Assembly: GCA_016840825.1 (NCBI GenBank)
Contig: JAEORN010000288.1
Span: 1-37,659 of the forward strand
Length of the DNA stretch: 37,659 bases
Reading direction: 5' to 3'
From: Candidatus Thorarchaeota archaeon
GTDB lineage: Archaea > Asgardarchaeota > Thorarchaeia > Thorarchaeales > Thorarchaeaceae
Shown one piece after another: positions 176 through 22,488 of this stretch. Under the pieces are notes generated by a model. It worked only from the letters and a program-made list of their open reading frames with translations. It made no database searches and had not been told where the DNA came from. The stretch's first letter is position 1. Each line of letters begins with the position of its first letter. The translations under genes and the position numbers were made by a program.

Positions 176-2065
176 TTAATCAAGGTCTTCAAAGTCTACA
201 TCAACAACATCTTCTTCAGAAACGTCCTTTTGAGGACTTCCACCAGATGCCTTTGAAGGATCGAATCCCATCTTGGAAGGATCGAATCCTGCTTGAGAGG
301 GGTCGAATCCTGCACCAGCACCTTGCGATGCGTAGACTTTCTCTGATATTTTATGAAGTACTTTCTCTAGGGTATCTCGTCCTGATTTCATCTTTTCGTA
401 GTCATCAGCCTTTATGGCTGCATTGAGAGATTCAATCTGAGACTGTGCCTCTGACTTAAGATCACTGGGAACTTTGTCGCCCAGGTCTTCGAGAAGCTTC
501 TCGGTCTGAAAGACCATATTCTCTGCGTTTACCTTGACCTCGATTTGGTCTCGTTTCTTCCGATCGTCTTCTGCATAACGTTCAGCATCCTTCACCATCT
601 GCTCCACTTGTTCAGACGATAGGTTTGTCGATGCAGTAATGGTGATGGATTGCTTCTTGCCAGTGGCTTTATCCTCAGCACTTACGTTGACTATTCCGTT
701 CGCATCGATGTCAAACGTGACTTCAATCTGTGGAACACCACGAGGAGCAGGAGGAATGCCATCCAATCGAAACTTACCAAGGGTCATATTCTGGTCAGCC
801 ATTGGACGCTCACCTTGTACGACATGGATGTCTACAGCAGTCTGGTTGTTCTCTGCTGTCGTGAAGGTCTTGCTCTTCCTTGTTGGAATTGTAGTATTCC
901 TCTCAATCAATGGTGTAGCAACGCCATGGAGTGTTTCGATGCTCAGTGTAAGTGGGGTGACATCAAGAAGGAGAATATCAGTGCGAACTCCAGATAGCAC
1001 ACCTGCTTGGGCTGCGGCTCCCAGAGCTACGACTTCGTCAGGATTGACGCTTTTATCACCTTCTTTGCCAAACATTGCTCGAATAACATTCTGAATCATT
1101 GGCATCCTCGTTGCACCACCTACGAGAAGGATCTTCTGGATTTGCTCTGGTTCCATCTTAGCATCTGATAGTGCCGTCCTAACCGGACCCAATGTCGCCT
1201 GGACAAGATCCTCAGTCATCTTCTCGAACTGAGAGCGGGTTAGGTCGATGCTAATGTGTTTTGGTCCAGTTTGATCAGCTGTAATATAGGGCAGATTGAT
1301 GTTTGTTTGCATGACCGTCGAGAGCTCTATCTTTGCTTGTTCTGCTGCATCCCGAATACGTTGCATTGCAGACAGGTCTTTTGTAATATCCATGCCTGTT
1401 TCTTTCTTGAATTCCTCAACAATCCAGTTAATCACTCTGTTATCCCAATCATCGCCACCGAGTTTTGTGTTTCCGTTTGTGGAGAGGACTTGGTACACAG
1501 TTTCGCCCTCTTCCTTACCAATATCAAGAATCGTGACATCAAAGGTCCCTCCACCAAGATCGAACACCAATGTCTTGACCTCCTGCACACGCTCAAAGTT
1601 GAAAGCCAAAGCTGAGGCAGTAGGTTCGTTCACAATTCGTTCCACCTCGAACCCTGCAATCTTACCTGCGTCTTTCGTCGCTTGCCTTTGGGCATCATTG
1701 AAGTATGCGGGTACAGTAATTACAGCTTTCTTAATCTCTTCACCTAGGAAGTTCTCTGCATCTCTTTTCATCTTGGACAATATCATTGCAGATATTTCCT
1801 GTGGGCTGTATTCCGTTTCACCAATCTTGACTATGAAATCTTCACCCATGTGTCGCTTGATGGACCGCACGGTTCGGTCAGGCATTGATACTGCTTGGCG
1901 TTTTGCCAACTCGCCTACAACGATCTCACCTTTCGGAGTGATACCGACAACTGAAGGAGTTAGTCTCTTTCCTTCTGCATTCGGAATTATAGTCGGTTTA
2001 CCACCTTCCATGTAGGCTATTCCACTGTTTGTAGTTCCTAGATCTATTCCTACAATCTTTGACAT
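176..2065 (-). CDS. dnaK: Chaperone DnaK (Hsp70)
   Basis: Cytoplasmic ATP-dependent Hsp70 that binds unfolded polypeptides, working with DnaJ and GrpE encoded beside it. The 629-residue length is usual. Visible motifs: phosphate-1 loop IDLGTTNS (residues 7-14), phosphate-2 [10 protein letters not shown] (169-178), adenosine motif LVGGATRMP (314-322), the interdomain linker [10 protein letters not shown] (365-374), the substrate-binding beta domain, and an acidic EEVD-like tail [13 protein letters not shown]. The N-terminal lobe runs directly through RSIKRHMG without the insert of about 23-27 residues found in proteobacterial Hsp70; by family knowledge that is the Gram-positive/archaeal form and fits ancient acquisition from bacteria. 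Just before the acidic tail are three copies of a GFDPS(K/Q)x heptapeptide (586-606). ATG overlaps the grpE stop (TAATG), implying translational coupling. Confidence 0.98.
258..310 (-). repeat. Three-copy 21-base tandem repeat inside dnaK
   Basis: The string GGATCGAATCC (with GGGTCGAATCC as third copy) recurs with a period of 21 bases at 258, 279 and 300 on the plus strand. It encodes three heptapeptides [14 protein letters not shown] and GFDPSKA in the flexible C-terminal linker of DnaK. Such in-frame repeats can change copy number by slippage; whether they do here is unknown. Confidence 0.85.
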
Positions 2066-2727
2066 TAATTATCACCTTCATTTTCGATAGTGTCTTCTTT
2101 GGCATCCCCGATAGTTTCATTTTTCGGATCATTGATTACTTCCTGATGTCGGTTCACGCAGACCACAGCAGGTCTGAGCACCTTATCTCGAATCATGTAA
2201 CCCTTTTGATATTCCTGAACCACAGTCTTGTCTGGAAGACTGTCATCACTAACAGAGTTTATCGCATTTTGGTAGTATGGATCGAATACCTTGCCAATTG
2301 ATTCAATTGGACGAACCTGCTCATTCTGAAGAATCTTCTCGAGCAGTTTGTTTATAGCTGCTACACCTTCTTTCGACGATTGAGGGTCGACAGAGAAGTC
2401 TGTTTCCAGTGCACGCTGCAAGTTATCAAAAACATCAAGTACTTTCAGGAGAATGCCTTCACTCGCAAACTGTGTTACTTCTTCAAAACGTGCATTCATC
2501 CTTTTCCTGTAATTGTCAAATTCTGCCTGAAGTCGAAGATACTTATCATGTAGTTCTTGGTAAGCCTCATTCGCTTCAACTGCCTGGGGTCCTTCCTTTG
2601 TAGCAGACTCAGCATCTTGTGACTTAGACTCAGCCTCATCGAAGTCCAAGGATACTTCTTCAACTCCGTCCTTCTTCTCTTCAAAGGGCTCATGGTTCTT
2701 CTGTGAATCATGATTCTCCTCGTACAT
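2065..2727 (-). CDS. grpE: Nucleotide exchange factor GrpE
   Basis: Co-chaperone that releases ADP from DnaK. At 220 residues it is slightly long because of an acidic, low-complexity N-terminal tail (about residues 1-50). The long dimerising helix follows (YQELHDKYLRLQAEFDNYRK, about 56-75, and on to about 110), then the C-terminal beta domain with the family signature GYMIRDKVLRPAVVCV. The stop codon overlaps the dnaK ATG by one base. It is first in the operon; no Shine-Dalgarno sequence stands before the ATG, so the message may be leaderless. I looked for the bacterial CIRCE operator (TTAGCACTC-N9-GAGTGCTAA) upstream and saw none, so control is presumably archaeal. Confidence 0.95.
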   Translation of the reverse strand: MYEENHDSQKNHEPFEEKKDGVEEVSLDFDEAESKSQDAESATKEGPQAVEANEAYQELHDKYLRLQAEFDNYRKRMNARFEEVTQFASEGILLKVLDVFDNLQRALETDFSVDPQSSKEGVAAINKLLEKILQNEQVRPIESIGKVFDPYYQNAINSVSDDSLPDKTVVQEYQKGYMIRDKVLRPAVVCVNRHQEVINDPKNETIGDAKEDTIENEGDN

Positions 2728-6886: not shown

Positions 6887-9800
6887 CTACTTCTTCTTGA
6901 CTAAGAAGAGAATCAGGATCACAACAACGCCGACGCCTATTCCACCAATGAGACCAATCCAGAGGAGCATCTCAGGTGGGAAGAGTCCGCCACCGCCACC
7001 ACCAGTGTCTGTGTCAGTGAGACCTGTGTCAGGTACGGTACCTGCATCGAACGGAGAAGATTCTCTTTCATCTGTCAATCCATACGAGTCAGTGACCCTA
7101 ACCAAAACTTGGTACTCACGCTCAGTAAAGCCATTGGAGTCCCAAACGAATTCAGTGTCAGTCAATCCAGTTGCAATGAGCTGGTATGACACACCTTCAT
7201 CGGCTGAGAGTAGAACCTCGAATACGTGGGTGTCATCTGCGTTCAGGTCGCTGTAAGTCCATTCAATGGTCTTTGAAGCTCCTTCACCAGAGACATCAAC
7301 AGGTCCAAGGACAGGGCTGAAGTAGTTGTAGAAGGTAATGTTCGAGTATTCAAGCTCGAAATCTACGTTTGTCTCAGTCCATCCATAGATCTTGACTGCG
7401 AAAGTTCCATTCTTCTCAAAGTCATAGGTGTCGAATGTGACTTGGGCTGCTGCTGCATCCTCGTCGATGCTTACACGACTATCGAGAGTCAGTTCGTAGG
7501 TATCTGGGAATGCGGCTGCATAGTAGAATGAGTAGATCACACAAGCGATTGACATGTCTGCAGTAGATGTGAACTGACCACTCTCAACTGTATCACCAGA
7601 GCTTCCATCATCTATTATGATGATTGGAGTGCCAACTATTGCACCGTCCTCATATTCGTATATGAGAAGTGCAGGGTCAGCAGCTGGATTGAACATCTCA
7701 AGTCTCAGTCGTACAACATCACCAGCATGGATACCGTCTATAACCTCGACTGCATATGAATCAGTCACGGCTAGTGAAAGCGGCCAATTCTCTGATGATG
7801 GTTCTGCTACATCACCTGTTCTGGTCACGAGTAGACCAGAGAGGAATGACATTCTCATGTCTGTGATTTCAAACTCAGGCATATTTGGCAGGTTGAATTC
7901 AGGGTAGCTGGCATTGAGTACGACGTGATCTCCACTAAGATGGTCTCCGTCAACAACAGTATCAACATCAGTACGATCGTTGTATGATGCACTGAGGATG
8001 ACAGGCTGATCAGTCAGACCCTCATACCACATTACTTCAATGGTGAAATTAACTGGTCCAAAGACCGAGGCATTGAGAGCAAGTGGGTGAATCTCAAGAT
8101 AGTACATTCCTTCACCGTCAATCTCAGCAAGTACAGCTGTAGTGTAATCGGTTTCGGCTGAACCATCTCCAATTGTTCCGAGAGCAGCGTCATAGACTTG
8201 GACGAACATGTCGTTGCCAGTATTTTCCCAGATAACACGAATACCTAGGTATGTCGCGTTTTCGTTTGTGTTCTTGATTGCATAGCTTCTGAAGTCCCAA
8301 TCATCTGGGTCCTCTTCCATACATCCGTATGCTGCATTGTCGTAAGGACTGAGGTCAGCGCCCCAACCATCAACAATGGTGTGTACGTCACCCTCATCAC
8401 CAGTGAGGTTGGCAACAACCATGTATCCGTATGGGATCATCAATGACTGTCCACCATCAGTTACTGTGACAAATCCAGTGTAAGCACCAGCATCTGCATC
8501 GGCAGGAACAGATAGTGTAACGTTGGCTGTGTAGCCTGAAGCTGCACCATTGTCAGCCCATGCGATAGGAGCTGTTGCGGTCTCCCAGAAGATTACAGTA
8601 ACAGTGAAGTCATTGCCAGGTGCGGTCATGTTCACGTCGTGGATAGGATCATGAATCACGATTGTCATGTTTCCAACGAGTGCGTCTAGACCAGCTGTAT
8701 TAGCATATGACATCTCATTGACGTTGCTTGCATCACTAGCACTGGTCAAGCGTCGTAGCTCATCACCAGTACCCTTGGAGGCATTGTAGAGGTTTGGCAT
8801 TCCATCATGTGGATCAGCGTCGACCCAGTCATAAAGGAACATCCAAGGCTCATCGCCGGCTACATCATCAGCGTTGAATGCAACGACGAATGTTACATAG
8901 TCGTAAGCTCCAAAAGCTGCATCATATGTGGCTGCACCAAGTGCCTCACGTACGTTGAAGTAGCCATACATTTGACTGTCTGGGAATTCGTTTACTTCAG
9001 TATCGTTGTAGGAGAATGTTGTGTCTTCAAAGGTGTATGTGTCTCCTGCTACATAGTAGAATGCATCTCCAGTGAGACTATCATCAGTGTAGTCGAGCAA
9101 TGTCGTTCCATAGTCATCCCAAACGCTGTACTCGATCATCACGTCCTCGCCAGGCAGTACCTGTCCGAAGAAGAGTGCACCGTCCATATAGCCAGTTGGG
9201 AAGGCTACAGCACTGCTGTTAATGAATTCCTGCATTCCAATGTAGAAGTCAAGAGTTCCCCAGTACTCCCAAGCATCAGCTACCAGAGCTGCGAAGTTGT
9301 CAAAGGAGTCCATGGTTCCACCCATGAGACCAGCATTGGTTTCTGCAAAGTCACAGGCTGCTTCTGCATTGACAAGACCGAAGCCTTGTATTGCTGAATC
9401 GTATCCTAGGTCTGTTGCGGTTGCCTGAATTACGGCTTTCACCTTGTAGGGTGTTGCATCACCTAAAGCTTCGATAACCAATGCGGCTACACCGGCTGCA
9501 ACTGGAGCAGCTTGACTGGTTCCAGAGAACAGAGTGTAGTTCTGGTAAATGCTTCCAGGTTGCCAGAATGGTACCCAGTAGACGCCCCACCAGGGCACTG
9601 CTGAATAGCCAGCTGAACCAGGAGCAAGTACATCAGGCTTTGGATATCCGGAGTAGGATGGACCTCTGCTTGTAAATGAAGCAAGACCATTGTAGTAGGT
9701 ATCTGATGAAGGACCATATAGATACTCGAGCCATGCGCTTGATGTTGAAGCACCTACAGTGAGGATGCTTGTTGCGGCACCAGGTGGACCAATGGTCATG

Positions 9801-11593
9801 TAACCTGCGCCTTCATTTCCTGCTGAGAAGACATGGAGTACACCAGGGTATCCAGTCTCGATAAAGTCTGGTTGAGAGAGTATCTCCCAAGTGAATGATA
9901 GGTAGTCGAATTGACTTGCTGGTGTGGTTACCCAACCCCAAGAGTTAGTAACGACATCTGCTGTGTGATTACCAGTGTAGACGAAGTAATCACTTGTCTC
10001 ATTGTAGTCGAAACCACAGACCCATAGGTATGAACCCCAGTTACCACCAGTGGTGATAGCCTTGGCAGAGATGAGTTCTGCATCAGGTGCAATACCAATC
10101 ATTTGGAATGTGGTGTTGGTATTCCAGTCCCAGTATGTCGCAGTACCATCTGCTGCAACGTGAGCTGCGGTAGCAGTACCGTGAGTACCTGAGTCGTAGT
10201 AGAGACCAAATGCCATACCATCATGTCTGAATTGGTAGACGAAGTCATCGGTGAAGGGTAGTCCATTGAGTTCTCCTTCCCAGTATGGGTCAGTTGCGAT
10301 CAAGTCGTAGACATAACCGATACTACCAATTGAGTAGTCATCAATTCCATCACCAGTGTAGTCATGTGCAAGGTGTGGATTGCTGGCGTTGTAGAATTCT
10401 TCTGCGATATCATCTGTAAAGTCGTAATCGAACAATGCTCCAATTGTAGACCAGTTTGAGGTTATATTGAAGTCCAATGTTTGATAACGCCAAGCACCCA
10501 TGAAGAATCTATTCCAACCCTCTGCACCTTCCCAGTCAACAGCTACTTGCCATTGCCCGTTTGTGGTTGAGTTCCAAAGCAGAACAGGAGTGAATATCCT
10601 GGGTGCTCCACCTGCGGTTGTGCCCTTACCTTGAAGGACATATCCAAAGTGGAAATCACCGTAAGCAAAAGATGCGTCAGGTATCTTGTACTCCTTCCAA
10701 ACTACTTGCTCGAAGAAGTCTGTTGCATTGGGCTTATTCTTTGCACCAGTAGCGTATACATAGTACTGGGGTGATAGAATGTTCACACCGTTGTAGTTTA
10801 CGTCGACATCGAAGTCAAGGGTGATGTTCATGTAAGTACCAGTTCCATTTACGAAGGTCAGTACGTTCCCGTCCTCGAGCCACTTCGTGATGTTGCTGAC
10901 AGCTGTAGTGTTAGCCAAAGCCTTTGTCAGAACAACACCAGCGCTAGTTGGATCGAATGAGTAGGGACTGTAGGCACCTTGAATGTCTGGATTACCGAAG
11001 TCACCACCAGTATCGATGTGTCCGACTGTAACTCCAGCGCCAGTATATCCGGAAGCTACTGTTCCAGTTGCACCGACGATGTCACGGAATTCAGTCATGT
11101 CAACGGCTGGTTCCTCAGGTATAGCTGCATCTACTTCGGGGGTTCCCTCAATATAGGTGTCTGCCATAATACCGGTGACACCTTCAAGGCCTATTACTAG
11201 GTCAAGAGCTGCTGCATCAGAAACTTTTGCCTGTGCGACCTTGAAAAGCTTGAGATCAACCACCCAAGCCAAATCAACCATATCTCTTAAGCTCTCGACG
11301 TCCATCCAGGGAGCGCCGTAGATCAGTACGCTTGGTCTTCCTGCAAAGGAGACAACAGAGTCACTTATGACTCCTGTAGACTGCCATTCTGCAAGATATG
11401 CATCAATACCTGGTCGGAAGCCCGGTTGAGAAACCTCTTTGTAGAAGTTATCAATCTGCTCGACTTGTTCAGGTGTAAATGTATCAGGCGAACTGATCTC
11501 TGCCTGCCTCACTGGTACCATGGGTAAGCTAAACATAGTCATACTCATGGCAAATATAAGGAGCAAAGCGAGAGCAATTCTCTTATTATTCAT
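6887..11593 (-). CDS. Giant secreted, membrane-anchored subtilisin-family (S8) serine protease
   Basis: Exported endopeptidase of 1568 residues. A signal peptide (about 1-25, hydrophobic ALALLLIFAMSMTMF) leads to a propeptide-like region. Catalytic triad: Asp194 in GHIDTGGD, His471 in DSGTHGTATAAH, Ser693 in FSGTSQAAP, with the oxyanion Asn593 in SAGNEG. An insert of about 275 residues separates Asp and His, far longer than in subtilisin (about 30). The long C-terminal part (about 720-1510) is beta-rich, acidic and full of N-x-S/T sequons, with Fn3-like strands near 1430-1510; then a TDTDTGGGGGGLFPPE linker, one membrane helix and a VKKK tail, so the enzyme faces outward from the cell membrane. 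GAGGAG lies 11 bases before the ATG. A structured leader (11620-11811) precedes it and a hairpin terminator follows. Confidence 0.94.
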   Translation of the reverse strand: MNNKRIALALLLIFAMSMTMFSLPMVPVRQAEISSPDTFTPEQVEQIDNFYKEVSQPGFRPGIDAYLAEWQSTGVISDSVVSFAGRPSVLIYGAPWMDVESLRDMVDLAWVVDLKLFKVAQAKVSDAAALDLVIGLEGVTGIMADTYIEGTPEVDAAIPEEPAVDMTEFRDIVGATGTVASGYTGAGVTVGHIDTGGDFGNPDIQGAYSPYSFDPTSAGVVLTKALANTTAVSNITKWLEDGNVLTFVNGTGTYMNITLDFDVDVNYNGVNILSPQYYVYATGAKNKPNATDFFEQVVWKEYKIPDASFAYGDFHFGYVLQGKGTTAGGAPRIFTPVLLWNSTTNGQWQVAVDWEGAEGWNRFFMGAWRYQTLDFNITSNWSTIGALFDYDFTDDIAEEFYNASNPHLAHDYTGDGIDDYSIGSIGYVYDLIATDPYWEGELNGLPFTDDFVYQFRHDGMAFGLYYDSGTHGTATAAHVAADGTATYWDWNTNTTFQMIGIAPDAELISAKAITTGGNWGSYLWVCGFDYNETSDYFVYTGNHTADVVTNSWGWVTTPASQFDYLSFTWEILSQPDFIETGYPGVLHVFSAGNEGAGYMTIGPPGAATSILTVGASTSSAWLEYLYGPSSDTYYNGLASFTSRGPSYSGYPKPDVLAPGSAGYSAVPWWGVYWVPFWQPGSIYQNYTLFSGTSQAAPVAAGVAALVIEALGDATPYKVKAVIQATATDLGYDSAIQGFGLVNAEAACDFAETNAGLMGGTMDSFDNFAALVADAWEYWGTLDFYIGMQEFINSSAVAFPTGYMDGALFFGQVLPGEDVMIEYSVWDDYGTTLLDYTDDSLTGDAFYYVAGDTYTFEDTTFSYNDTEVNEFPDSQMYGYFNVREALGAATYDAAFGAYDYVTFVVAFNADDVAGDEPWMFLYDWVDADPHDGMPNLYNASKGTGDELRRLTSASDASNVNEMSYANTAGLDALVGNMTIVIHDPIHDVNMTAPGNDFTVTVIFWETATAPIAWADNGAASGYTANVTLSVPADADAGAYTGFVTVTDGGQSLMIPYGYMVVANLTGDEGDVHTIVDGWGADLSPYDNAAYGCMEEDPDDWDFRSYAIKNTNENATYLGIRVIWENTGNDMFVQVYDAALGTIGDGSAETDYTTAVLAEIDGEGMYYLEIHPLALNASVFGPVNFTIEVMWYEGLTDQPVILSASYNDRTDVDTVVDGDHLSGDHVVLNASYPEFNLPNMPEFEITDMRMSFLSGLLVTRTGDVAEPSSENWPLSLAVTDSYAVEVIDGIHAGDVVRLRLEMFNPAADPALLIYEYEDGAIVGTPIIIIDDGSSGDTVESGQFTSTADMSIACVIYSFYYAAAFPDTYELTLDSRVSIDEDAAAAQVTFDTYDFEKNGTFAVKIYGWTETNVDFELEYSNITFYNYFSPVLGPVDVSGEGASKTIEWTYSDLNADDTHVFEVLLSADEGVSYQLIATGLTDTEFVWDSNGFTEREYQVLVRVTDSYGLTDERESSPFDAGTVPDTGLTDTDTGGGGGGLFPPEMLLWIGLIGGIGVGVVVILILFLVKKK

Positions 11594-11619
11594 TTTTTCT
11601 CTTTCTCCTCACTCTTCAA

Positions 11620-11811
11620 TAGAGAACAGAGATGTCAGAGCACGAGTCGACTAAGACATGCTCTGAGCGCAATAAACCGGTGTTTGCCGAGAACGCCGCC
11701 CCGTCGGGCAGGCAAACACTTCTCCTCATTCCGCGTTCTCTACATCTTGCGTGATTAATTAGGAACGACTTCAATACCACTATTAAGGATTGTGCCTTCT
11801 CAATAGTGGGT
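11620..11811 (-). ncRNA. Candidate structured leader RNA upstream of the giant protease
   Basis: This stretch is a local island of complementary segments. Seen directly: a perfect 9-bp helix GTGTTTGCC (11680-11688) with GGCAAACAC (11711-11719), enclosing GCCC/GGGC (11698-11701/11706-11709, loop CGTC); GAGAACGC (11689-11696) complementary to GCGTTCTC (11733-11740), which crosses the first helix as a pseudoknot; AGAGAAC (11621-11627) complementary to 11735-11741, a rival of the pseudoknot; TCAGAGCA (11635-11642) with TGCTCTGA (11659-11666); and CCACTATTAAGG (11777-11788) with CCTT (11795-11798) plus AATAGTGG (11802-11809), a 12-bp stem with a 3-base bulge. It lies on the minus strand between a TATA-like box and the protease ATG. 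No known riboswitch or housekeeping RNA was recognised. An independent small RNA is the alternative. Confidence 0.55.
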
Positions 11812-11865
11812 TCGTTGATATGGACCCCCAGAAGTTTATGGATAAGGATTATGAGCACTTAATTC

Positions 11866-11873
11866 TATTTTTA
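11866..11873 (-). promoter_or_regulatory. TATA-like box for the leader/protease transcript
   Basis: On the minus strand the sequence reads CCTAAAAATAGA, a reasonable archaeal TATA element. It would place transcription start near 11843, just before the first stem of the leader RNA, giving an untranslated leader of about 250 bases. The rest of the 384-base gap (11874-11977) is AT-rich with further TATA-like strings (for example around 11920-11950) and no gene. Confidence 0.3.
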
Positions 11874-11977
11874 GGATGTCCTTATGCTTACTTATTCACG
11901 AATGGGGAGTGGATAGTTCTCTATTAATATGTTTTTTATGTAACGAAAATTTGGTCTAAACATAAGCTGATAATTAG

Positions 11978-13096
11978 CTACTTGCGTGATAGCTTCTTTA
12001 TACTATCCACGATTTCATGAACCATCATGACTGCACCTATTAGTTCGACTTTAGGAGCATCATCTTTCTCAGCAGGTTTGCCAACGATTCGACCCATCGA
12101 ACGTCCCAGACCCTCTATCAAGGTAGTGAGAGTCTTCTTCGTTGACTGCTCTAATCCACTGGACTCAATCTGGGAGATCAATTCTGCAAGATCTGAGATA
12201 ACACTATCAGAAACCTCAGATGCGGTTTCAGCTCTGCGAGAATAGTCATTGACTCTTGCAGTAACAACTTTCAACTTCTCCTCAAGTTCCTGGATTTTCT
12301 CTTCTCCAGCACCTACAGCTTTTTCAGGAGACCGTTCATCGCTTTCCATGATAAGACGTAAATCAGCTAGTTCAGATTGGATACGACTTATGGTTTCATC
12401 CTTCTTGGATATAGTTTCTAGAAGCTCTTGCTTACTGGCGTCATCTTCGACAGATTCTCGGAGTCTTGACTCCATTTCAGCAATCGAGCCCTCGCGCTCA
12501 CTAACTGAAGCCTTCAATCCATCTAGTTCAGATTGAAGAACCTCCAAAGTTTCTTCCTTCTCCCTCAGAAACTCACTAAGCCTCTTGTTCTCGGCTTCTA
12601 GTTCCTTCTTACCTCTAGCCATTTTTTCGGAAGCTTCACCAATCTCCCTTAGCTTGCTCTGCAGATTGGTGAAATCAGGATCTGGTGGATTTATGACAGA
12701 TCTAGCAATAAATGCGAAGATGATGATTGTTCCAATTAGATAGACCATGAAATATTGAATTCCATATACAAATAGCATATTTGACACTCTCTGAAGAATG
12801 GCGTAATATAAATCATAAGAGCCAAAAGATGCCGAATCATCTGGCAACCACCACATGGAACCAAAACCTGAATAGAGAATTAGAATGAATGCTCCGACTA
12901 TTCCAAGAATTCCGATGAAGATTATTACATTTCTACGACGTTCAGTTGATGGAAGATACCTTTGATAAAGAAGCAGCAGGATTGCTCCAAAGATTAATGG
13001 AAGAGCAAAGGGGAGTGCTGCTACAAGGTTGCTTCCATACTCCGTAGGGAATCCGATGAGCATCTCAAGACGAGGAAGGATATTCGAATTAGACAA
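11978..13096 (-). CDS. Membrane protein with long cytoplasmic coiled coil, unknown function
   Basis: No known family recognised. About 372 residues. The N-terminal third has three or four membrane helices (roughly residues 24-45, 57-79, 105-135), then an abrupt switch to a charged heptad-patterned coiled coil (about 140-290, e.g. KELEAENKRLSEFLREKEET and KIQELEEKLKVVTARVNDYS), then a shorter helical C-terminal domain (about 295-372, LAELISQIESSGLEQSTKKT onward). Such a layout suits a membrane scaffold or sensor. The frame opens with TTG codons at 13102 and 13096; AGGAGG (13105-13110) is 8 bases from the second but only 2 from the first, so 13096 is preferred. A GATATATTTC box (about 13147-13156) gives a 30-base leader. 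Confidence 0.75.
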   Translation of the reverse strand: MSNSNILPRLEMLIGFPTEYGSNLVAALPFALPLIFGAILLLLYQRYLPSTERRRNVIIFIGILGIVGAFILILYSGFGSMWWLPDDSASFGSYDLYYAILQRVSNMLFVYGIQYFMVYLIGTIIIFAFIARSVINPPDPDFTNLQSKLREIGEASEKMARGKKELEAENKRLSEFLREKEETLEVLQSELDGLKASVSEREGSIAEMESRLRESVEDDASKQELLETISKKDETISRIQSELADLRLIMESDERSPEKAVGAGEEKIQELEEKLKVVTARVNDYSRRAETASEVSDSVISDLAELISQIESSGLEQSTKKTLTTLIEGLGRSMGRIVGKPAEKDDAPKVELIGAVMMVHEIVDSIKKLSRK

Positions 13097-13194
13097 ATAC
13101 AAGTCCTCCTAATTAAGCCAGACAGATTAGATTGTAAGGTTCTTGAAATATATCTCTTCTTGCACTGTACCTGTTAAAGAAAATGGATAGAAAA

Positions 13195-13520: not shown

Positions 13521-13680
13521 TATCAGATCACTTCTTGAAAGTATCTTCAATAGTATATGGTACTTGAGAGGATTTACCTTCATAGCTCGCTAGGTCCGAG
13601 TCGATAATTAGGGCTAACACGCCTTCAAGCAAAACCTTAACTTTAGAGCGATTAAGCAGAGATTGGATGGACACCCCACA

Positions 13681-16584
13681 ATGTCTAGAATCAACAGTGA
13701 TAATTCCCAGCGTTTTCTATCAGGCTTCATCCTAGTACTCCTAGTATTGCCATTCCTTGGAATGACAGTATCTAGTTCAGGAAATCAGTCTGAATCAAGT
13801 TCCTTATTGATAAACCCACATCTTCTTTCCAGGATGACTGAAGCAACTTCGGATGATTCGATTCCTATTACGATCGAATTCGAATTGGGCTTTAGTCAAT
13901 ACCTGCTGGAGGAAATGATGTCGAAATTATCAATCAATGGAATCGAAATCAGGAATATCTTCAGATACATCCCCTACGTTTCAATGTATGCGACTTCTGA
14001 TGCCATTATGCAGCTTACAAAGCTGAACGGAGTTGTTTCTATCAATTATGATAGAGAACTGAGTGTCGAGCCACTTGATATCGCACTTGCACCACCTCAG
14101 AACGAGATTGAGGCGGGTTATGTCCATCCAGATAAAATACTAGATGTCGAGAGCCTCTGGAATGCAGGATATAATGGAACGGGAATAACTGTAGCAGTCA
14201 TTGATAGTGGAGCTGATGGTACGCATCCTGATTTGGTGGGGAAGCTTTCAGGATTCTATGATCTAGTCAATGATCAGAGTGATATGGATCCCTCAAATGG
14301 GATTGATGCGTATGATGATAATGGACATGGTACTGCGTGCACCTGGCTAATCACAGGATCAGGTGTAGGAACAGATTACGCATATACCGGATTGGCCGTT
14401 GGTGCACAAGTTCTTGTAATTAAGACCCTAGATTCCTCAGGTGCTGCAGAGGATTCTGTGATTGCTCAGGGAATCGAATATGCCATTACTGCAGGAGTAG
14501 ACATCATTAGCCTGAGCGTTGGAGGAGAATGGCTTGACAGCCCGCTCTTTTCAGATGCTTCGTCTGATGCAGCAAAAACAGCAGTAGAAGAAGGAATCGT
14601 TGTCGTTGTTGCAGCAGGCAACTCAGGACCAGCTACGAACACAATTACCTCCCCGGGAATAGTTCAAGAGGTAATAACTGTTGGAGCATCAATAGGCGCC
14701 ACAGACGTGGTATCCTTCAGTAGTAGAGGTCCAGTCTATCGGGAACGGCTTGATCCTGTTGGAGCTGTGGCAAAGCCAGACATTCTTGCCCCGGGATATA
14801 ATATTCTATCAGGAATCACTAGTGATGCTAATGTTTACGAATATCCTCCATACAACCGGACTCAATTTGATGCGGACTACACCATTTGGTCAGGAACGTC
14901 TGCTTCTGCTCCACAGATTGCGGCAGTCGCAGCATTACTTATGGATAAACATCCTGCTTTGACTCCAATCGAAGTAAAGACAATCTTGATGGAGGGTGCG
15001 ACTGATCTCGGTATAGATCCATTAGAACAAGGATATGGTATTGTCAATGCCACAAAGTCTTCAGAGATATATACGAGTACTTCAGGAGTTATTACTCTCA
15101 TTGCACCGCTCCGATATCCAACCCTCCCGGGAACTAGTCAGGTCCTTATCATAGGTGATACCAGGGATCCTACAAATGCAACCGTTATATCAACTGTTAA
15201 TCGAGGTTCTTTGGATATTGAACTGACAGGAAACGCCTCTCAGTTTGTAGTCGCAGACTCGGATGTTACAGTAACGACAGGTTACAGCTATTTCAGCATT
15301 GGTCTAGAAGTCCCTCATAACTTACCTCTATCAGCATTAGGTGCGTACTCTGGAACGGTAGACTTGGTTTCAGGCAGTGAGATAATTGCATCTATGGAGC
15401 TGAATTTACTTATAACTACCTATGGAGGCCGCCTTCTAGTTGACATGGGACATCATTCTAGTACGGATCCTGATGATGTATCATACTATAGATACTTCTC
15501 AGAATATCTGAGAGAGCAGGGAATGGTGATATCTGAATATCCGGCCAATTGGAGGGATGATTTTGCTGTACCAAGAGCATTCGATGGAGCAGCAATAGCA
15601 TCTACCGAAGTTCTAATGATTATGGATACTGAAGAATCATACACTCAGAATGAAATTGACTTGATCCACTCATTTGTTGAAGACGGAGGAACTCTCCTTA
15701 TTCTTTCAGAAGGATTCGATACACAAGCAAATATGCCTGCTTTCGCCTTTGCATCGTACAATCAAATCCTTGAGCCATATGGCATCCAGTGTGAGGAGAA
15801 TTGGATAGGAGACAATGGTGGTGTATATGGTTCAGACAATGGTGGTGCCGTCGATTCGGATCCTCTTACTGATGGAGTCAGGAACCTGTATGTTCTAAAT
15901 GGTGGAACTCTATCAATTGATTCATCTGTCGAAGGAACAGAGGGATTAGTGTGGACTGATGCAAGTAGAACTCATGCAATAGTTGCCATTGCACAATCCG
16001 GAGAAGGTCGAGTCATTGCAATCTCAGATGGTTCAATTCTCTACGATACAAGCATCTATGATGCAATTCTTAATGAAGCAGACAATTTGCGATTGCTTGA
16101 GAATGTTGCTGAAGCAATCATTCCGAACTCACCTCGAATCTATGATGTTAAACTAAATCATGAGGGAGTAGGGGAGGATGCAAATCTCACAGCATATATT
16201 TTTGATGAGAATATTGACTCTGTTGACATTTCGATTATTGATCCCAATGGAAATGAAATCGCATCCCCAATTGTGGAACCGCTTGGCTACAAATACACAA
16301 TCGAATTCATCTTAGAAACCACGGGCTTCTACGAAGTTAGCATTATAGCAACCAATGAAGCAGGATATGCTAGAACATATACGAAAACCATCTTGGTACC
16401 GGTACAAGCACTGGAAGACGAGATTCTTATGGGCGTGATATTTGGATTGCTCGGAATTGTAGGAATCGCTCTGGTATACGTAGGATTCCTTAGATTTGTA
16501 GGTGGAAGGAAAAAGAGAATGCCATATGAGAGAGAGTGGTCACCTGAATGGGAGGACGAAAAAGCTCCGCCCTCTATTGAATAG
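13681..16584 (+). CDS. Secreted membrane-anchored S8 protease with site-1-protease-like layout
   Basis: About 967 residues. Signal peptide (about 10-36, FLSGFILVLLVLPFLGMTVS), an I9-like propeptide (about 45-140), then the subtilisin domain with Asp175 in AVIDSGADG, His216 in NGHGTACT, the oxyanion Asn in VAAGNSGP and Ser407 in WSGTSASAP. A post-catalytic domain (about 584-800) begins RLLVDMGHHS and contains EVLMIMDTEESYTQNE and GRVIAISDG; a beta domain, one membrane helix (about 917-940) and a short cytoplasmic tail follow. The order protease, GATase-like domain, C-terminal helix is that of eukaryotic site-1 protease. The frame opens at ATG 13663, but a TATA-like CTTAACTTTAGA (about 13637-13650) favours ATG 13681. 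The 3' end overlaps the convergent oxidoreductase by 11 bases. Confidence 0.92.
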   Translation: MSRINSDNSQRFLSGFILVLLVLPFLGMTVSSSGNQSESSSLLINPHLLSRMTEATSDDSIPITIEFELGFSQYLLEEMMSKLSINGIEIRNIFRYIPYVSMYATSDAIMQLTKLNGVVSINYDRELSVEPLDIALAPPQNEIEAGYVHPDKILDVESLWNAGYNGTGITVAVIDSGADGTHPDLVGKLSGFYDLVNDQSDMDPSNGIDAYDDNGHGTACTWLITGSGVGTDYAYTGLAVGAQVLVIKTLDSSGAAEDSVIAQGIEYAITAGVDIISLSVGGEWLDSPLFSDASSDAAKTAVEEGIVVVVAAGNSGPATNTITSPGIVQEVITVGASIGATDVVSFSSRGPVYRERLDPVGAVAKPDILAPGYNILSGITSDANVYEYPPYNRTQFDADYTIWSGTSASAPQIAAVAALLMDKHPALTPIEVKTILMEGATDLGIDPLEQGYGIVNATKSSEIYTSTSGVITLIAPLRYPTLPGTSQVLIIGDTRDPTNATVISTVNRGSLDIELTGNASQFVVADSDVTVTTGYSYFSIGLEVPHNLPLSALGAYSGTVDLVSGSEIIASMELNLLITTYGGRLLVDMGHHSSTDPDDVSYYRYFSEYLREQGMVISEYPANWRDDFAVPRAFDGAAIASTEVLMIMDTEESYTQNEIDLIHSFVEDGGTLLILSEGFDTQANMPAFAFASYNQILEPYGIQCEENWIGDNGGVYGSDNGGAVDSDPLTDGVRNLYVLNGGTLSIDSSVEGTEGLVWTDASRTHAIVAIAQSGEGRVIAISDGSILYDTSIYDAILNEADNLRLLENVAEAIIPNSPRIYDVKLNHEGVGEDANLTAYIFDENIDSVDISIIDPNGNEIASPIVEPLGYKYTIEFILETTGFYEVSIIATNEAGYARTYTKTILVPVQALEDEILMGVIFGLLGIVGIALVYVGFLRFVGGRKKRMPYEREWSPEWEDEKAPPSIE

Positions 16585-17867: not shown

Positions 17868-20800
17868 TTACTTTCGCCATTTCCATAGGATTAGCACTAC
17901 AGCTGCTAAACCAACTCCAATGCCACCTATAAGTATTGCATATGAGTAGTCGTCAACCAAGCTAAGCTGCCCTAGTAGAAGGGATACTTCTGTTCCACTT
18001 TGAGAAATAGCTACAGCAAATACATCATATGCTCCAGCTACTAGTCCAGCCGTAGAAATGTCAAATCTATACACACCATTTGAACCAGTCAAACTAAGAT
18101 TGAACATTGCTCCGTATGATGATTGAAGTGAAAGAAATACATCTGAAGCTAATAGATATCCTTGCACAGTGAAGTTGCCAGTGATTCTTTCTGTTATTAA
18201 CGGACCAATCCTTACGATATCTCTGTCAAGGCTTCCATCGATTATCTGTAGCTGAAGGGAACTACCACTTGAAAGAACGACTGGTGGAAAACCAAGGTCA
18301 TGTGTTCCATCTGATAATACTATCAGTAAGGAGAGCATATCTGTCGATGATATTTCAGATGTGTCAATCTCCGTTTCAAATGTATACACGCCGCTAGCTG
18401 AAATCTCGTTCAGCACATCCAAATCACCATCCACTACATCGATACTGACAGCAAGAAGACTAGAGTCAGTATCCTTGTCCGAAAGCTCCAGATTTATGGT
18501 GTATATCTCATCTGAGTAGCTCATCGAGAATGATTCGATGAGTGGGAACCATAGGTCTACCAAAAACGAGGTGGCTGTTTCATCCTTCGAGGAGTTAGCT
18601 AGATCTCCGCTCTGAATTTCAATACGACCGAGATCAACTCCAAGCGTATGCTCGATATATAGGTAGACAAAATTAGAGCTGTTACTCCACTCAGTTTCGC
18701 CAGTAGCAACAAAAGCGCCGCTTTGCCATTCATATATTGTAGCAATATTACTAGACACATTTACCTTCAAGTCTACTCCCACTTTCCCTGTTGCCATCGA
18801 GTTATCAGTATCCCAATTTAGTGTTAGTACATCATTTGTTGAAAAATCAGGTGTCCCTCGAAAACCTATTCTGAACCACGCCTTATCGGTTTCAAGGTAT
18901 GTACTCACATTGAGGATATCATAACCTCCATCAATATCTAGATCTGATCCATCTGATACTAAGGCCGGTATTCCATTCCAGTTCAATGATTCGTTTCCAG
19001 AGAGGAGTTGTTGTATCGACCAGACGGGATTGACTATCCCAAATCCCCATGAGTCTGAAGGTTCGCTGAAATGGTTTTCAGCACCACCACTTCCTTGCAA
19101 AAGAGCTGAAAGAGTCCGCCATCCATCGATATCACCTGATGCGTCTTTAATAAGCGCAACTACACCTGCCGCATGAGGAGCTGCCATACTTGTTCCCGAT
19201 CTAGTATACCAAAGAGTGCCCACACTGTTATAGGCAGCGCGGATCGCATCTCCAGGAGCTGTCACAAGTGGCTTTGGCACCTCATCTACTCTGGGACCTA
19301 AGCTTGAAGAGTCACTTAGCAGCATTGTGATTTCATTAAATGAGGCCACCGTTATTCCAAGATCAGCTGTTCCAGGTGAACTAATTGTGTGTGTATAATC
19401 AATCTTTGTTGTAAAACGCAGTGCAGTGCCGCCCCACGCATTGTCCCATGCGTACATATGGACTATCACATCATCTCCAGTAGGATTTGTGATTCCTATG
19501 TCCCACAATCCTAAATCCCAGAAGTGATCCTGAGAGGAAATCTGAATGATAACGCGATTAATGCCCTTCACACCTTTATCAGCGAAGACATACGCTGAGA
19601 TATTGCCATGGTTTATTTCAAAATAATCATCTTTTATTTCATTGAACTCTCCAAGATCAATTCTCTCTTCAGAGTCTGGAGGTGTGAGTACGACATGCTC
19701 ATCATCGTTGTCGCTCCGCCATAAAATATTCAGAAACGAATAGCTAGGAGGACTATGAACAGAGAGAGTTGCGCTATTTTCATTGCTTGAGGTAATCGTA
19801 AAACTAGCGTGTTTCGGACGCCCTCCGAGATTTCCTGCTGCAAGTGTTGAAATCGCTCCATATTGCATCAAAGCCTCATTGATTGCCAAATCCTCATAAT
19901 CAGAACCATCAAGAAATCCAAGGTAGCTTGAGAAGGACATATTGATGACATCAGCGTCATTCTCAGCAGCAAATGAAATCGCATCAATTACAGCATCAGA
20001 ATCCAATGGACTCTTGATTATAATTAGATCTGCTCCAGGAGCCACACCAACATAATCGGTCATTCCAATCTGACCGCCAGCTACAATAGATGCAACATGT
20101 GTACCATGTCCGATTGTATCAAGTACATTAATCGCATCAGTCAAATTGACACCACGGACATATACGCTGGAGGTTACTTGATCATATAGAATGGCTACCT
20201 TTGATTCACCAAGTATGACTACGTGTTCAGAATTCAGATCAATAAATCCATCATGATTGGAATCTATCCCACCAAGCCATCTGTCGCCGGCAGAAAAATC
20301 AAAACGTCCATTATCTTCAATATCGATAAACATGTAATCATCACTGTAATCAATAGTAGATCCACTCTGCTGATCAATAGTATTGATGGGTCCTTCGTTT
20401 TCATCAAATACTGAATCACCATCGATATCAACAAAATAATGAGTACCATTGTAATGCACGGATAGTTCCTCAGAAGATGCTCGCCAAAGGGATGGATGTA
20501 GCCATGTTGCACCTGTGTCAATTACAGCTACTCGTGTACCAGTTCCATCTATCGCTTCTCCGTCTAGTTCAAATTCGTTCCATACTGTAGGTGCACCTAT
20601 TGATGGGACAGAAGTAGCAAGTGACGGATAATATTGCTTAGACCCAGAAGATGCTTGAATTAGTCCAAGGTATCTGATGCGATTCAAAGATTCGATATCT
20701 GAAACGGTTGCTGTGTAAATCGACCCGACATGAATTACATTTCCATTTCTCCTATTAAACTGGATTCCCAAATCTTCAGCCTGATTGACCTGATCTTTGG

Positions 20801-21029
20801 TTAGTTCGGATTGGAATCTGAGAATACTACTTACTCCAGTATTACCCGCAGCAAGGACTCTTTCTGCTGTGTGGGTTTTGTATTGTGTTAGCTCCATCTT
20901 GAGTTGTGATTCAATAAGTGGAGAACTAGATGGAATGTAGCCATCATTTGAACTATCAGAAACCGACATTGATACAGGAATCTGTATTGTCGATATGACA
21001 AGTACGAGTATGATAAGACGCTTGTACAT
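17868..21029 (-). CDS. Secreted membrane-anchored S8 protease with calcium-loop insert
   Basis: A 1053-residue exported serine protease. Signal peptide (about 1-22, LIILVLVISTIQIPVS), propeptide (about 40-135), triad Asp171 in AVIDTGATW, His308 in IGHGTHVAS, Ser614 in RSGTSMAAPH, oxyanion Asn400 in LAAGN. The 137-residue stretch between Asp and His holds EF-hand-like acidic loops: DIDGDSVFDENE (201-212, acidic at positions 1, 3, 5, 9, 12), DIEDNGRFD (236-244) and DSNHDGFIDLNSE (256-268), probably calcium sites. A second insert (about 410-550) between Asn and Ser looks like a beta-sandwich. Beta-rich C-terminal region, one membrane helix (about 1028-1048) and a WKWRK tail. Start supported by GAGG seven bases before ATG. 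First gene of a pair with the oxidoreductase. Confidence 0.94.
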   Translation of the reverse strand: MYKRLIILVLVISTIQIPVSMSVSDSSNDGYIPSSSPLIESQLKMELTQYKTHTAERVLAAGNTGVSSILRFQSELTKDQVNQAEDLGIQFNRRNGNVIHVGSIYTATVSDIESLNRIRYLGLIQASSGSKQYYPSLATSVPSIGAPTVWNEFELDGEAIDGTGTRVAVIDTGATWLHPSLWRASSEELSVHYNGTHYFVDIDGDSVFDENEGPINTIDQQSGSTIDYSDDYMFIDIEDNGRFDFSAGDRWLGGIDSNHDGFIDLNSEHVVILGESKVAILYDQVTSSVYVRGVNLTDAINVLDTIGHGTHVASIVAGGQIGMTDYVGVAPGADLIIIKSPLDSDAVIDAISFAAENDADVINMSFSSYLGFLDGSDYEDLAINEALMQYGAISTLAAGNLGGRPKHASFTITSSNENSATLSVHSPPSYSFLNILWRSDNDDEHVVLTPPDSEERIDLGEFNEIKDDYFEINHGNISAYVFADKGVKGINRVIIQISSQDHFWDLGLWDIGITNPTGDDVIVHMYAWDNAWGGTALRFTTKIDYTHTISSPGTADLGITVASFNEITMLLSDSSSLGPRVDEVPKPLVTAPGDAIRAAYNSVGTLWYTRSGTSMAAPHAAGVVALIKDASGDIDGWRTLSALLQGSGGAENHFSEPSDSWGFGIVNPVWSIQQLLSGNESLNWNGIPALVSDGSDLDIDGGYDILNVSTYLETDKAWFRIGFRGTPDFSTNDVLTLNWDTDNSMATGKVGVDLKVNVSSNIATIYEWQSGAFVATGETEWSNSSNFVYLYIEHTLGVDLGRIEIQSGDLANSSKDETATSFLVDLWFPLIESFSMSYSDEIYTINLELSDKDTDSSLLAVSIDVVDGDLDVLNEISASGVYTFETEIDTSEISSTDMLSLLIVLSDGTHDLGFPPVVLSSGSSLQLQIIDGSLDRDIVRIGPLITERITGNFTVQGYLLASDVFLSLQSSYGAMFNLSLTGSNGVYRFDISTAGLVAGAYDVFAVAISQSGTEVSLLLGQLSLVDDYSYAILIGGIGVGLAAVVLILWKWRK

Positions 21030-21129: not shown

Positions 21130-22488
21130 TTATTCCTTTGAGATAACATCCACATCTCTGAAAACAATCTCAGGCGCAATTAGATTCTGCATATTGTGTG
21201 GTTTCTTGGCAATCTCTTCCACTTGTTTGAGGAGATCGAAGATATTGCCTGATACCATCAAACCGTGTATTGCTCCAATCATTTTCCCATTCTCGATTAG
21301 AATCGCAGGATTACCAACGACACTGAAATCACCTGACTCAGGATTTGAGCTATGGGCTCCCTGCACTCCTCGTATATAGTATCCATAGTCAATCTCAGAT
21401 ATTATTGTTTCAATATCACGGGCACCCGGCTCAAAGATGATATTGCTTGTTGATACTTCAACTAATCCTTGTCTTTTGTTGCGTCTAGCATTTCCTGTAC
21501 TTTCTACGCCCATTCTACGTGCCCAGTAGTTATCCCAAATGAAAGAACGCAAGACTCCTTTATCTAGAATAGTGGTTTTTTGTCTTGGAACTCCTTCATG
21601 ATCAGCCACACTTGCATTTATGCCTCTAACGTCCGTACCATCATCAATCATAGTGATTAGCTTTGACGCAATCATCTCACCAATTTTATCCCCAATCTTT
21701 GATTTCCCTCGAGCAACATTATCTCCCCGGATTGATTCAAAGAGTGTGTACTGCATTATTTGCCCGTAAGCCCCAGGATGCATTATGACCTTGAACTTAC
21801 CCGTTCTGCCTTGGGCAGTTCTTTTGACTATCCTGATATTGTCAACTACTTCTCTAACAACAAAATCGACATCAATGTCAGCAGATCTTCGTACATCAAA
21901 ACCCAACACACTGGGAGTCATTCCTGTTTCGGTAGGCGCTACACCAGCAAGATACGTATATGCTGCAGTACCTTTCTCTGAATGCTCAACACCACTACTA
22001 TTGGCGTATGCCTCCACAGAAACTACACTTCCAGTTCCGCCAAATCCTGCAATCAATCCAGGCTCTTCTGTTGTGCACTTTTGGACAAGGTCGGTTGAGA
22101 TCTCAGCTACAATAGATGCCTCAGAACTGACTACAGAATCATCCCATAGACCATCGACTTTCTGATAGCTTTTTGGTAAGGGGAGAGGTTGTATGTTTTC
22201 ATCTTCTGTGGTTGCCTTTGCGGCAGCAATCGCCAGGCTCAAAGCTTCTTTGGTCGCATCTTTTGTAGGAATATTGGTGAAAGCAGAACCGGTTCTCTTT
22301 CCAATGAAAGCCCTAATGGCTATTGCAACGCCTTTATTGAGGTTAACACTGGAAACTTGACCCATCTCAACTGTGGATTCAAGATTCTCCGAATCTTCAG
22401 CATGGACCTCTATATCATCAGCTCCCATCCGTTTTCCCTCAGAAACTAGAAACTTACATAGCTCCAAGAGATTCTTTTCGTCAATCAT
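21130..22488 (-). CDS. tldE: TldE/PmbA, partner subunit of the TldD/TldE protease
   Basis: A 452-residue member of the TldD/PmbA family. By family knowledge TldE lacks the metal site and forms a heterodimer with TldD that trims unfolded peptides (in Escherichia coli it matures microcin B17 and degrades CcdA). The N-terminal domain carries EVHAEDSENLESTVEMG and VSSVNLNKGVAIAIR; the C-terminal domain has YYIRGVQGAHSSNPESGDFS and GNPAILIENGKMIGAIHG. No HExxxH motif is present, which makes this TldE rather than TldD. Its ATG overlaps the tldD stop by one base (TAATG), so the two subunits are translationally coupled. Archaea commonly carry this pair as a general intracellular peptidase. Confidence 0.93.
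   Translation of the reverse strand: MIDEKNLLELCKFLVSEGKRMGADDIEVHAEDSENLESTVEMGQVSSVNLNKGVAIAIRAFIGKRTGSAFTNIPTKDATKEALSLAIAAAKATTEDENIQPLPLPKSYQKVDGLWDDSVVSSEASIVAEISTDLVQKCTTEEPGLIAGFGGTGSVVSVEAYANSSGVEHSEKGTAAYTYLAGVAPTETGMTPSVLGFDVRRSADIDVDFVVREVVDNIRIVKRTAQGRTGKFKVIMHPGAYGQIMQYTLFESIRGDNVARGKSKIGDKIGEMIASKLITMIDDGTDVRGINASVADHEGVPRQKTTILDKGVLRSFIWDNYWARRMGVESTGNARRNKRQGLVEVSTSNIIFEPGARDIETIISEIDYGYYIRGVQGAHSSNPESGDFSVVGNPAILIENGKMIGAIHGLMVSGNIFDLLKQVEEIAKKPHNMQNLIAPEIVFRDVDVISKE

Follow-up and report, generated by a model that had tools for sequence, protein, structure and literature searches.

A candidate structured leader RNA upstream of a giant subtilase gene in Thorarchaeota

What is the role of the DNA directly upstream of a giant protease gene in a Thorarchaeal genome? 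The Thorarchaeota are archaeal relatives of the ancestors of complex cells, and the question is raised by positions 11594-11977 of a Thorarchaeal (Asgard) stretch of 37,659 nucleotides, the whole of which is called the window. An earlier note on this DNA had proposed a pseudoknotted leader RNA of the protease, read from the minus strand. There can be very little doubt that a conserved structured leader is real; its shape is preserved among relatives even where much of the sequence differs, and this leader, which lies outside the catalogued RNA families, probably controls the protease gene. The patterns of conservation suggest, with fair confidence, that minus-strand positions 11756-11605 form a structured leader, about 150 nt long and conserved across the class, at the 5′ end of the giant-subtilase mRNA. 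The features are as follows.

6887-11593, minus strand: the putatively controlled gene, coding for a 1568-aa subtilase (Pfam Peptidase_S8, PF00082, E 3.9e-37)
11781-11786, minus strand: TATA-like box TTAATA, the putative promoter, at a conserved spacing to AATCAC
11751-11756, minus strand: AAUCAC, the putative 5′ end of the transcript, in the same place in 27/27 upstream regions
11735-11743, minus strand: 5′ strand of helix P1, GUAGAGAAC, with 97.7% of cells paired
11722-11734, minus strand: joining strand J12, GCGGAAUGAGGAG, ending in GAGGAG in 27/27
11680-11719, minus strand: hairpin P2, with an outer 9-bp stem (11711-11719/11680-11688) and an inner GCCC/GGGC stem
11689-11696, minus strand: bulge of P2, GCGUUCUC, one strand of the earlier note's pseudoknot
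11667-11679, minus strand: joining strand J23, CGGUUUAUUGCGC, reading GAGGU in many relatives
11635-11666, minus strand: hairpin P3, UCAGAGCA/UGCUCUGA, with exact 8-bp arms
11619-11627, minus strand: 3′ strand of P1, GUUCUCUAU, with GGAGAA at the ribosome site as a possible rival partner
11605-11612, minus strand: GUGAGGAG, the putative ribosome binding site, GTGAGG in 26/27

The translation of the subtilase carries the motifs DTG at 194, HGT at 471, and GTS at 691. It also has a hydrophobic N-terminal start and a C-terminal hydrophobic segment closing in KKK, and because of these two hydrophobic ends, judged by eye, the protease may be located at the cell surface. The neighbourhood is rich in peptidases, with two further subtilases and a PmbA/TldD pair beside the giant protease (13663-16584, plus strand; 17868-21029 and 21130-23918, minus strand), and several relatives likewise have subtilase matches a few kb away. 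Upstream of the leader, positions 11978-13102 of the minus strand encode a 374-aa protein whose sole Pfam match, Sec2p, is below the cut-off, and HSP70 and GrpE genes are adjacent at 176-2727 (minus strand).

Every string and coordinate of the complementary segments named in the earlier note is found in 11594-11977. The exact inverted pairs are 11680-11688/11711-11719 (9 bp) and, at 8 bp each, 11689-11696/11733-11740 (the proposed pseudoknot), 11620-11627/11735-11742, 11635-11642/11659-11666, and 11777-11784/11802-11809. The string TTCTCCTCA (minus strand TGAGGAGAA) occurs twice, at 11603-11611 and 11720-11728. The P1 3′ strand also takes part in a perfect inverted repeat of 10 bp with DNA upstream of the putative transcript start, AATAGAGAAC/GTTCTCTATT (11618-11627 and 11916-11925). 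The contrast between a GC-rich element and AT-rich flanks holds as well, with a G+C content of 0.54 in 11621-11745 versus 0.33 in 11594-11620 and 0.34 in 11746-11977. The stretch had been taken as non-coding, and the only frame of at least 60 aa inside it is an 80-aa GTG frame. A conserved upstream ORF was rejected, since the length differences between relatives in the P2 and P3 segments are not divisible by three.

All foldings and partition functions were computed at 37 °C. Minus-strand 11594-11760 folds at -60.1 kcal/mol compared to a shuffled mean of -46.0 (z -3.38), and 0/200 shuffles are equally stable. The plus strand also folds (11620-11760, z -2.87, with 3/200 shuffles equally stable), but the promoter, the order of the motifs, and the direction of the gene point to the minus strand as the RNA strand.

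Occurrence of the leader in the class and phylum

The class searched is that of G001, the genome containing locus L001 (Candidatus Thorarchaeota archaeon OWC3); 47 of its genomes were covered, with both the protease protein and the leader DNA as queries. The named relatives are Candidatus Thorarchaeota, with a few titled Lokiarchaeota or "archaeon." A plasmid origin was rejected, with no match among plasmids. The best DNA match to the leader comes from G012, where 166 bases immediately before the protease are 87% identical; a number of shorter matches likewise lie next to the protease on its upstream side, and the others are at chance level. From 45 loci, the 300 nt upstream of each orthologue start were taken, giving 27 regions (26 relatives and the window), to which counts out of 27 refer. 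Left out were L001; L003-L009, which repeat places or are without a start; L010, L023, and L027, in which the start is not that of the orthologue; L024, L036, L037, and L039, without a start; L056, which repeats L035; and the paralogues L002 and L022.

The proposal of a structured, conserved leader RNA on the minus strand is upheld by these genomes. The same leader precedes the orthologous subtilase of about 1,570 aa in every class genome whose orthologue start could be located, 28 in all (26 by upstream extraction, G025 by protease search, and G029 by likeness of the start peptide), which is the constant position upstream of the same gene that is expected of a cis-regulatory leader. A 29th leader, in G010, lies 157 nt before the end of its contig. 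Among the matches listed, the other 18 class genomes have start-less fragments, paralogues, weaker subtilase matches, or nothing. The leader is kept while the protease drops to 32-36% identity to that of the window.

With a first covariance model, seeded on six relatives, the window scores E 1.1e-11 and 19/23 non-seed sources reach E ≤ 0.001; the retrained model recovers 29/29 sources, 25 of them training rows. When the best 64 candidates per genome were scored with the retrained model, 30 of the 47 class genomes had a match at E ≤ 1, and strong matches (E ≤ 3.4e-5) were found in 29/47, one per genome. Those outside the training rows are G025 (2.7e-17), G003 (1.9e-9), G001 (4.8e-9), G034 (6.8e-6), and G005 (3.4e-5). 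Two weak matches in G014 (E 0.010 and 0.18) are taken as chance, and the stretch concerned, L089, is without GAGAAC and GAGGAG. In 227 genomes of the phylum, with the best 13 candidates per genome scored, one further match at E ≤ 0.01 was seen (G080, 0.0088) and is likewise taken as chance; the protease itself is present at E ≤ 1e-60 in 31 of the 227, all first met in the class search. With such strict filters and the best 64 or 13 candidates per genome, weak extra copies of the leader could be missed.

The giant paralogues P0014, P0015, and P0016 (2299-2599 aa) have a subtilase joined with PF00496, a family of peptide-binding proteins. In the covariance-model search of the class, no second strong leader was found in the searched genomes with paralogues, including paralogues fused to substrate-binding domains.

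One could consider that the element is a separate small RNA gene that chances to sit before the protease, and its compact fold with a promoter-like box of its own would suit such a gene. However, none of the 29 strong matches lies away from the protease (the G010 contig ends 157 nt on), P1 ends only 9-17 nt before TGAGG in 26/27, and no T-tract is seen between P1 and the start codon in the upstream regions, which makes a small RNA gene very improbable.

The earlier note had matched the element to no known class, and a search of Rfam 15 agrees, with 0 matches over the gathering cut-off in the window and in six relative loci. At E ≤ 10, 391 bases give three weak matches, the best at E 0.036 and all below the cut-off. 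An HDV- or hammerhead-type ribozyme, a candidate suggested by the crossing pairs, was rejected, as there is no Rfam match and the crossing pair is not conserved.

Promoter, helices, and joining strands

In reading order, the element consists of the TATA-like box, AAUCAC, P1 (which closes a three-way junction), the GAGGAG strand, P2, P3, GUGAGGAG, and the start codon. AATCAC follows the TATA-like box by 29-31 nt in all 27 upstream regions (the box is TTAATA itself in 23 and a variant in 4), and this spacing places the transcript start near 11756. The earlier note had considered a start near 11843, which is unlikely given this spacing. The upstream hairpin of that note (11777-11809) covers the promoter, lying on the TATA-like box (minus 11786-11781), and, being upstream of the probable start near 11756, it is probably outside the RNA. 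The transcript would thus start at AAUCAC and run into the protease gene. Among 156 ORFs of at least 150 aa with 200 nt upstream, drawn from the examined loci with the protease orthologues included, AATCAC occurs within 200 nt upstream of 30; this protease accounts for 20 of them, paralogues for 2, and unrelated ORFs for 8. The letters AUCAC are common to the putative 5′ end and to the 3′ end of the 16S rRNA of relatives, GGATCACCTCCT.

P1 pairs GAGAAC (two species have GGGAAC or GAGAAT instead) with GUUCUC or a variant of it, and the pairs further outward are species-specific. The string GAGAACGC is intact in 24/27 and GTTCTC in 21/27. The distance from the end of P1 to TGAGG is 9-17 nt in 26/27 and 12 nt in G003. 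Part of P1 had been described in the earlier note as an alternative to the pseudoknot: the pairing (11620-11627/11735-11742) is indeed present, but it is the conserved P1 and not an alternative. The repeated TGAGGAGAA, for which a decoy role had been suggested, is likewise present in both copies and is partly explained by GAGGAG, which stands in the P1-P2 joining strand in 27/27. A pairing between J12 and J23 (such as GAA with UUU) reaches 3-8 contiguous pairs, G-U pairs included, and was left out of the structural model. A further helix, P0, joins the 5′ UCAC by 4 bp to the GUGA that belongs to the ribosome site. It is part of the window's best fold and of the consensus fold computed for 10 relatives; it hardly varies and is therefore not assessable by covariation.

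Sequence-only MAFFT alignments misplace P2 and P3, and for this reason the covariance model was seeded with a structure set by hand on six sequences, three of which fitted it less well (31-33/40 pairs). The resulting alignment of 29 rows (the 27 regions with L043 and L044, loci for which the upstream extraction had given no start; G025 stands outside it) is therefore fitted to the structure. In this fitted alignment, 33/40 pairs have changed on both sides, 89.1% of cells are paired compared to 38-49% in slid controls, and all five measures are above 500/500 shuffles, so conserved secondary structure with compensatory changes is found. Changes on both sides are seen in 6/9 pairs of P1 (helix 2), 8/8 of P2 (helix 3), and 16/16 of P3 (helix 5, with 79.9% of cells paired). 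A tree-aware null in the manner of R-scape, which keeps the tree and the changes per column and was applied to the same fitted alignment, leaves 21/40 pairs at E < 0.05 (2/9 in P1 and 0/4 in P0); five column pairs pass the all-against-all threshold, all within the structure. Compensatory changes in homologues had been set beforehand as the check on the leader, and it is these both-sided changes, 33/40 in all and 21/40 under the tree-aware null, that speak for it.

Because the alignment is fitted to the structure, tests independent of it were added. The pairs flanking P1 sum to 85 compared to a mean of 63.9 with shuffled partners, and 0/2000 shuffles are as high, in a shuffle that ignores kinship. 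The P2 and P3 segments fold as hairpins when taken alone: relative to shuffles, z is below -1 in 27/27 for P2 (mean -3.6) and in 20/27 for P3 (mean -2.2). When the sequences of 10 relatives were aligned without regard to structure, RNAalifold returned P0, P1, and small helices with 0/23 pairs changed on both sides, which is attributed to misaligned hairpins.

While the hairpins keep their shape, their letters do not stay the same. By a simple global measure, the mean pairwise identity is 0.49 for P2 and 0.57 for P3 versus 0.80 for J12. The freedom of P2 and P3 to vary in sequence, together with a P1 that starts only 7-12 nt past AAUCAC in 27/27, would suit a passive element, meaning a fold near the 5′ end that shields the mRNA or serves as a spacer and senses nothing. 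However, the fixed letters of GAGGAG and GUGAGG exceed the needs of a stability hairpin, and the leader stands before one gene only, so a passive role is rather unlikely.

The fixed purine letters bring up another reading, in which the GAGG motifs are bound by a protein (a repressor, an activator, or a protective factor) and not by a small ligand. Similar motifs are indeed repeated in unpaired strands: GAGGAG in J12 (27/27), GAGGT in J23 (17/27, the window itself being without it), and GTGAGG at the ribosome site (26/27). Against this, an exported protease would be an unlikely binder of its own mRNA, and such a protein-bound leader is less likely than not.

The crossing helix fares less well than the leader. 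The earlier note had placed the pseudoknot at the core of the RNA, and this is not supported by the relatives: 7-8 bp are reached in 2/27 only (the window and G012), and the crossing helix is not conserved. Counted in Watson-Crick pairs, GAGAACGC with GCGUUCUC in the P2 bulge gives 8 bp in the window and 7 bp in G012; G006 and G038 stop at 6 bp, and none of the remaining 23 exceeds 5 bp. When G-U pairs are allowed, G001 and G004 reach 7 and four others 6, in a count made without a shuffle control. One could still picture the H-type pseudoknot as a working third state in the lineage of the window, for the long pairings of the window and G012 are matched by 0/500 shuffles each, and those of G006 and G038 by fractions of 0.014 and 0.022. 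Against this, the pseudoknot would compete with P1, the G006 strand sits inside a P2 stem, and the window and G012 are close relatives (their leaders are 87% identical), so one origin may explain both long pseudoknots. A third state of this kind is quite unlikely.

The ribosome site and possible modes of action

How would such a leader act? In 27/27, a GAGG starts 15-19 nt ahead of the start codon. The 3′ end of the 16S rRNA is GGATCACCTCCT in 4/4 relative loci read, with a 16S match in 5/6 genomes, and GAGG-type motifs can therefore serve as ribosome sites. In the comparison of 156 ORFs, GTGAGGA within 30 nt of the start is found before 16, all of them this protease, and other common motifs are GAGGTG (13) and AGAGGT (13). 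The leader very probably acts in cis, and its fold would do so on translation. That it works through the ribosome site is also probable, to a lesser degree. The 5′-terminal UCAC could pair with the GUGA of GUGAGGAG.

A strand exchange between P1 and the ribosome site is a more specific mechanism. At the ribosome site (11603-11612, minus strand), the motif, in several species close to GUGAGGAGAAC, resembles the P1 5′ strand GUGGAGAAC (11735-11743), a likeness that a strand-exchange switch would need and that 6/27 are without. GGAGA stands at the ribosome site in 21/27 and is missing in 6/27, and in most species it could take up the P1 3′ strand GUUCUC. The mean computed probability over the 27 is 0.72 for P1 (below 0.1 in 6/27) and 0.44 for P0. 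When the P1 5′ strand is blocked in the computation, pairing of the 3′ strand with the ribosome site reaches a probability of at least 0.3 in 14/27, in line with the earlier proposal that a shared strand can also reach that site, which is thus computed for some species. On blocking, the mean openness of the ribosome motif over the 27 goes from 0.40 to 0.32; it falls by at least 0.1 in 10/27, rises in 3 (the window, G043, and G008), and is little changed in 14. The motif of the window is closed either way, with an openness of 0.01 before and 0.15 after blocking. Because the window does not behave as a switch would when P1 is blocked, and the folding supports only some species, P1 strand exchange as the switch is a doubtful proposition. 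Action in cis via the ribosome site is the best reading, and P1 strand exchange is a weaker one.

The same computations bear on an RNA thermometer, in which heat would open the ribosome site. In many of the ensembles computed at 37 °C, the ribosome motif is largely paired, with a mean openness of 0.40, and this speaks for a thermometer. A simple one, however, needs neither a conserved GAGGAG strand nor two covarying side hairpins, and a thermometer is thus improbable.

Returning to action in cis via the ribosome site, a small molecule, an ion, or a protein might settle on the purine-rich joining strands, stabilise or disrupt the junction, and in this way set the openness of the ribosome site. 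In its most far-reaching form, the leader would be a riboswitch class confined to the Thorarchaeota, in which the three-way junction binds a metabolite or ion and shifts the P1 3′ strand and the 5′ end on or off the ribosome site. This reading is clearly less likely than not, and such a class would be the first Asgard-specific one, as far as the searches show. The association with a single gene gives no hint of a ligand. Being short, strongly covarying, and tied to one gene, the leader lends itself to in vitro synthesis and direct testing. If it does control the protease, extracellular protein breakdown would be shown to be regulated at the RNA level in organisms related to the ancestor of eukaryotes.

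Comparison with known leaders

Protein-bound mRNA leaders include those of ribosomal protein genes and those with CsrA-type GGA sites. The Thorarchaeal leader is like them in its repeated purine motifs, one of which is at the ribosome site, and unlike them in that the gene downstream codes for an exported protease.

Among archaea, few riboswitches are predicted and fewer are validated, according to PMC11549558, and PMC4247193 and PMC10450193 likewise indicate that they are few. No riboswitch in Asgard archaea was found in the literature searched, which was available in part and mostly without subscription papers, so an earlier description is possible. SECIS elements have been treated in Asgard archaea (PMC11227280), and structured mRNA elements as such are therefore already known there.

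The closest archaeal parallels are the candidate fluoride (crcB) and preQ1 riboswitches of the Thermococcales (PMC4247193), which are structured leader-type RNAs seen as transcripts. They belong to different families, and their Rfam models do not match the Thorarchaeal leader. RNA thermometers (PMC11549558) also place a structure near the ribosome site in the 5′ leader; the Thorarchaeal leader differs from them in that the letters of its joining strands are conserved and its two side hairpins covary. Translational riboswitches offer the remaining comparison. Although the Thorarchaeal leader matches no Rfam class and precedes one gene only, it is like them in being a 5′ leader with conserved junction letters and covarying helices, placed next to the ribosome site.
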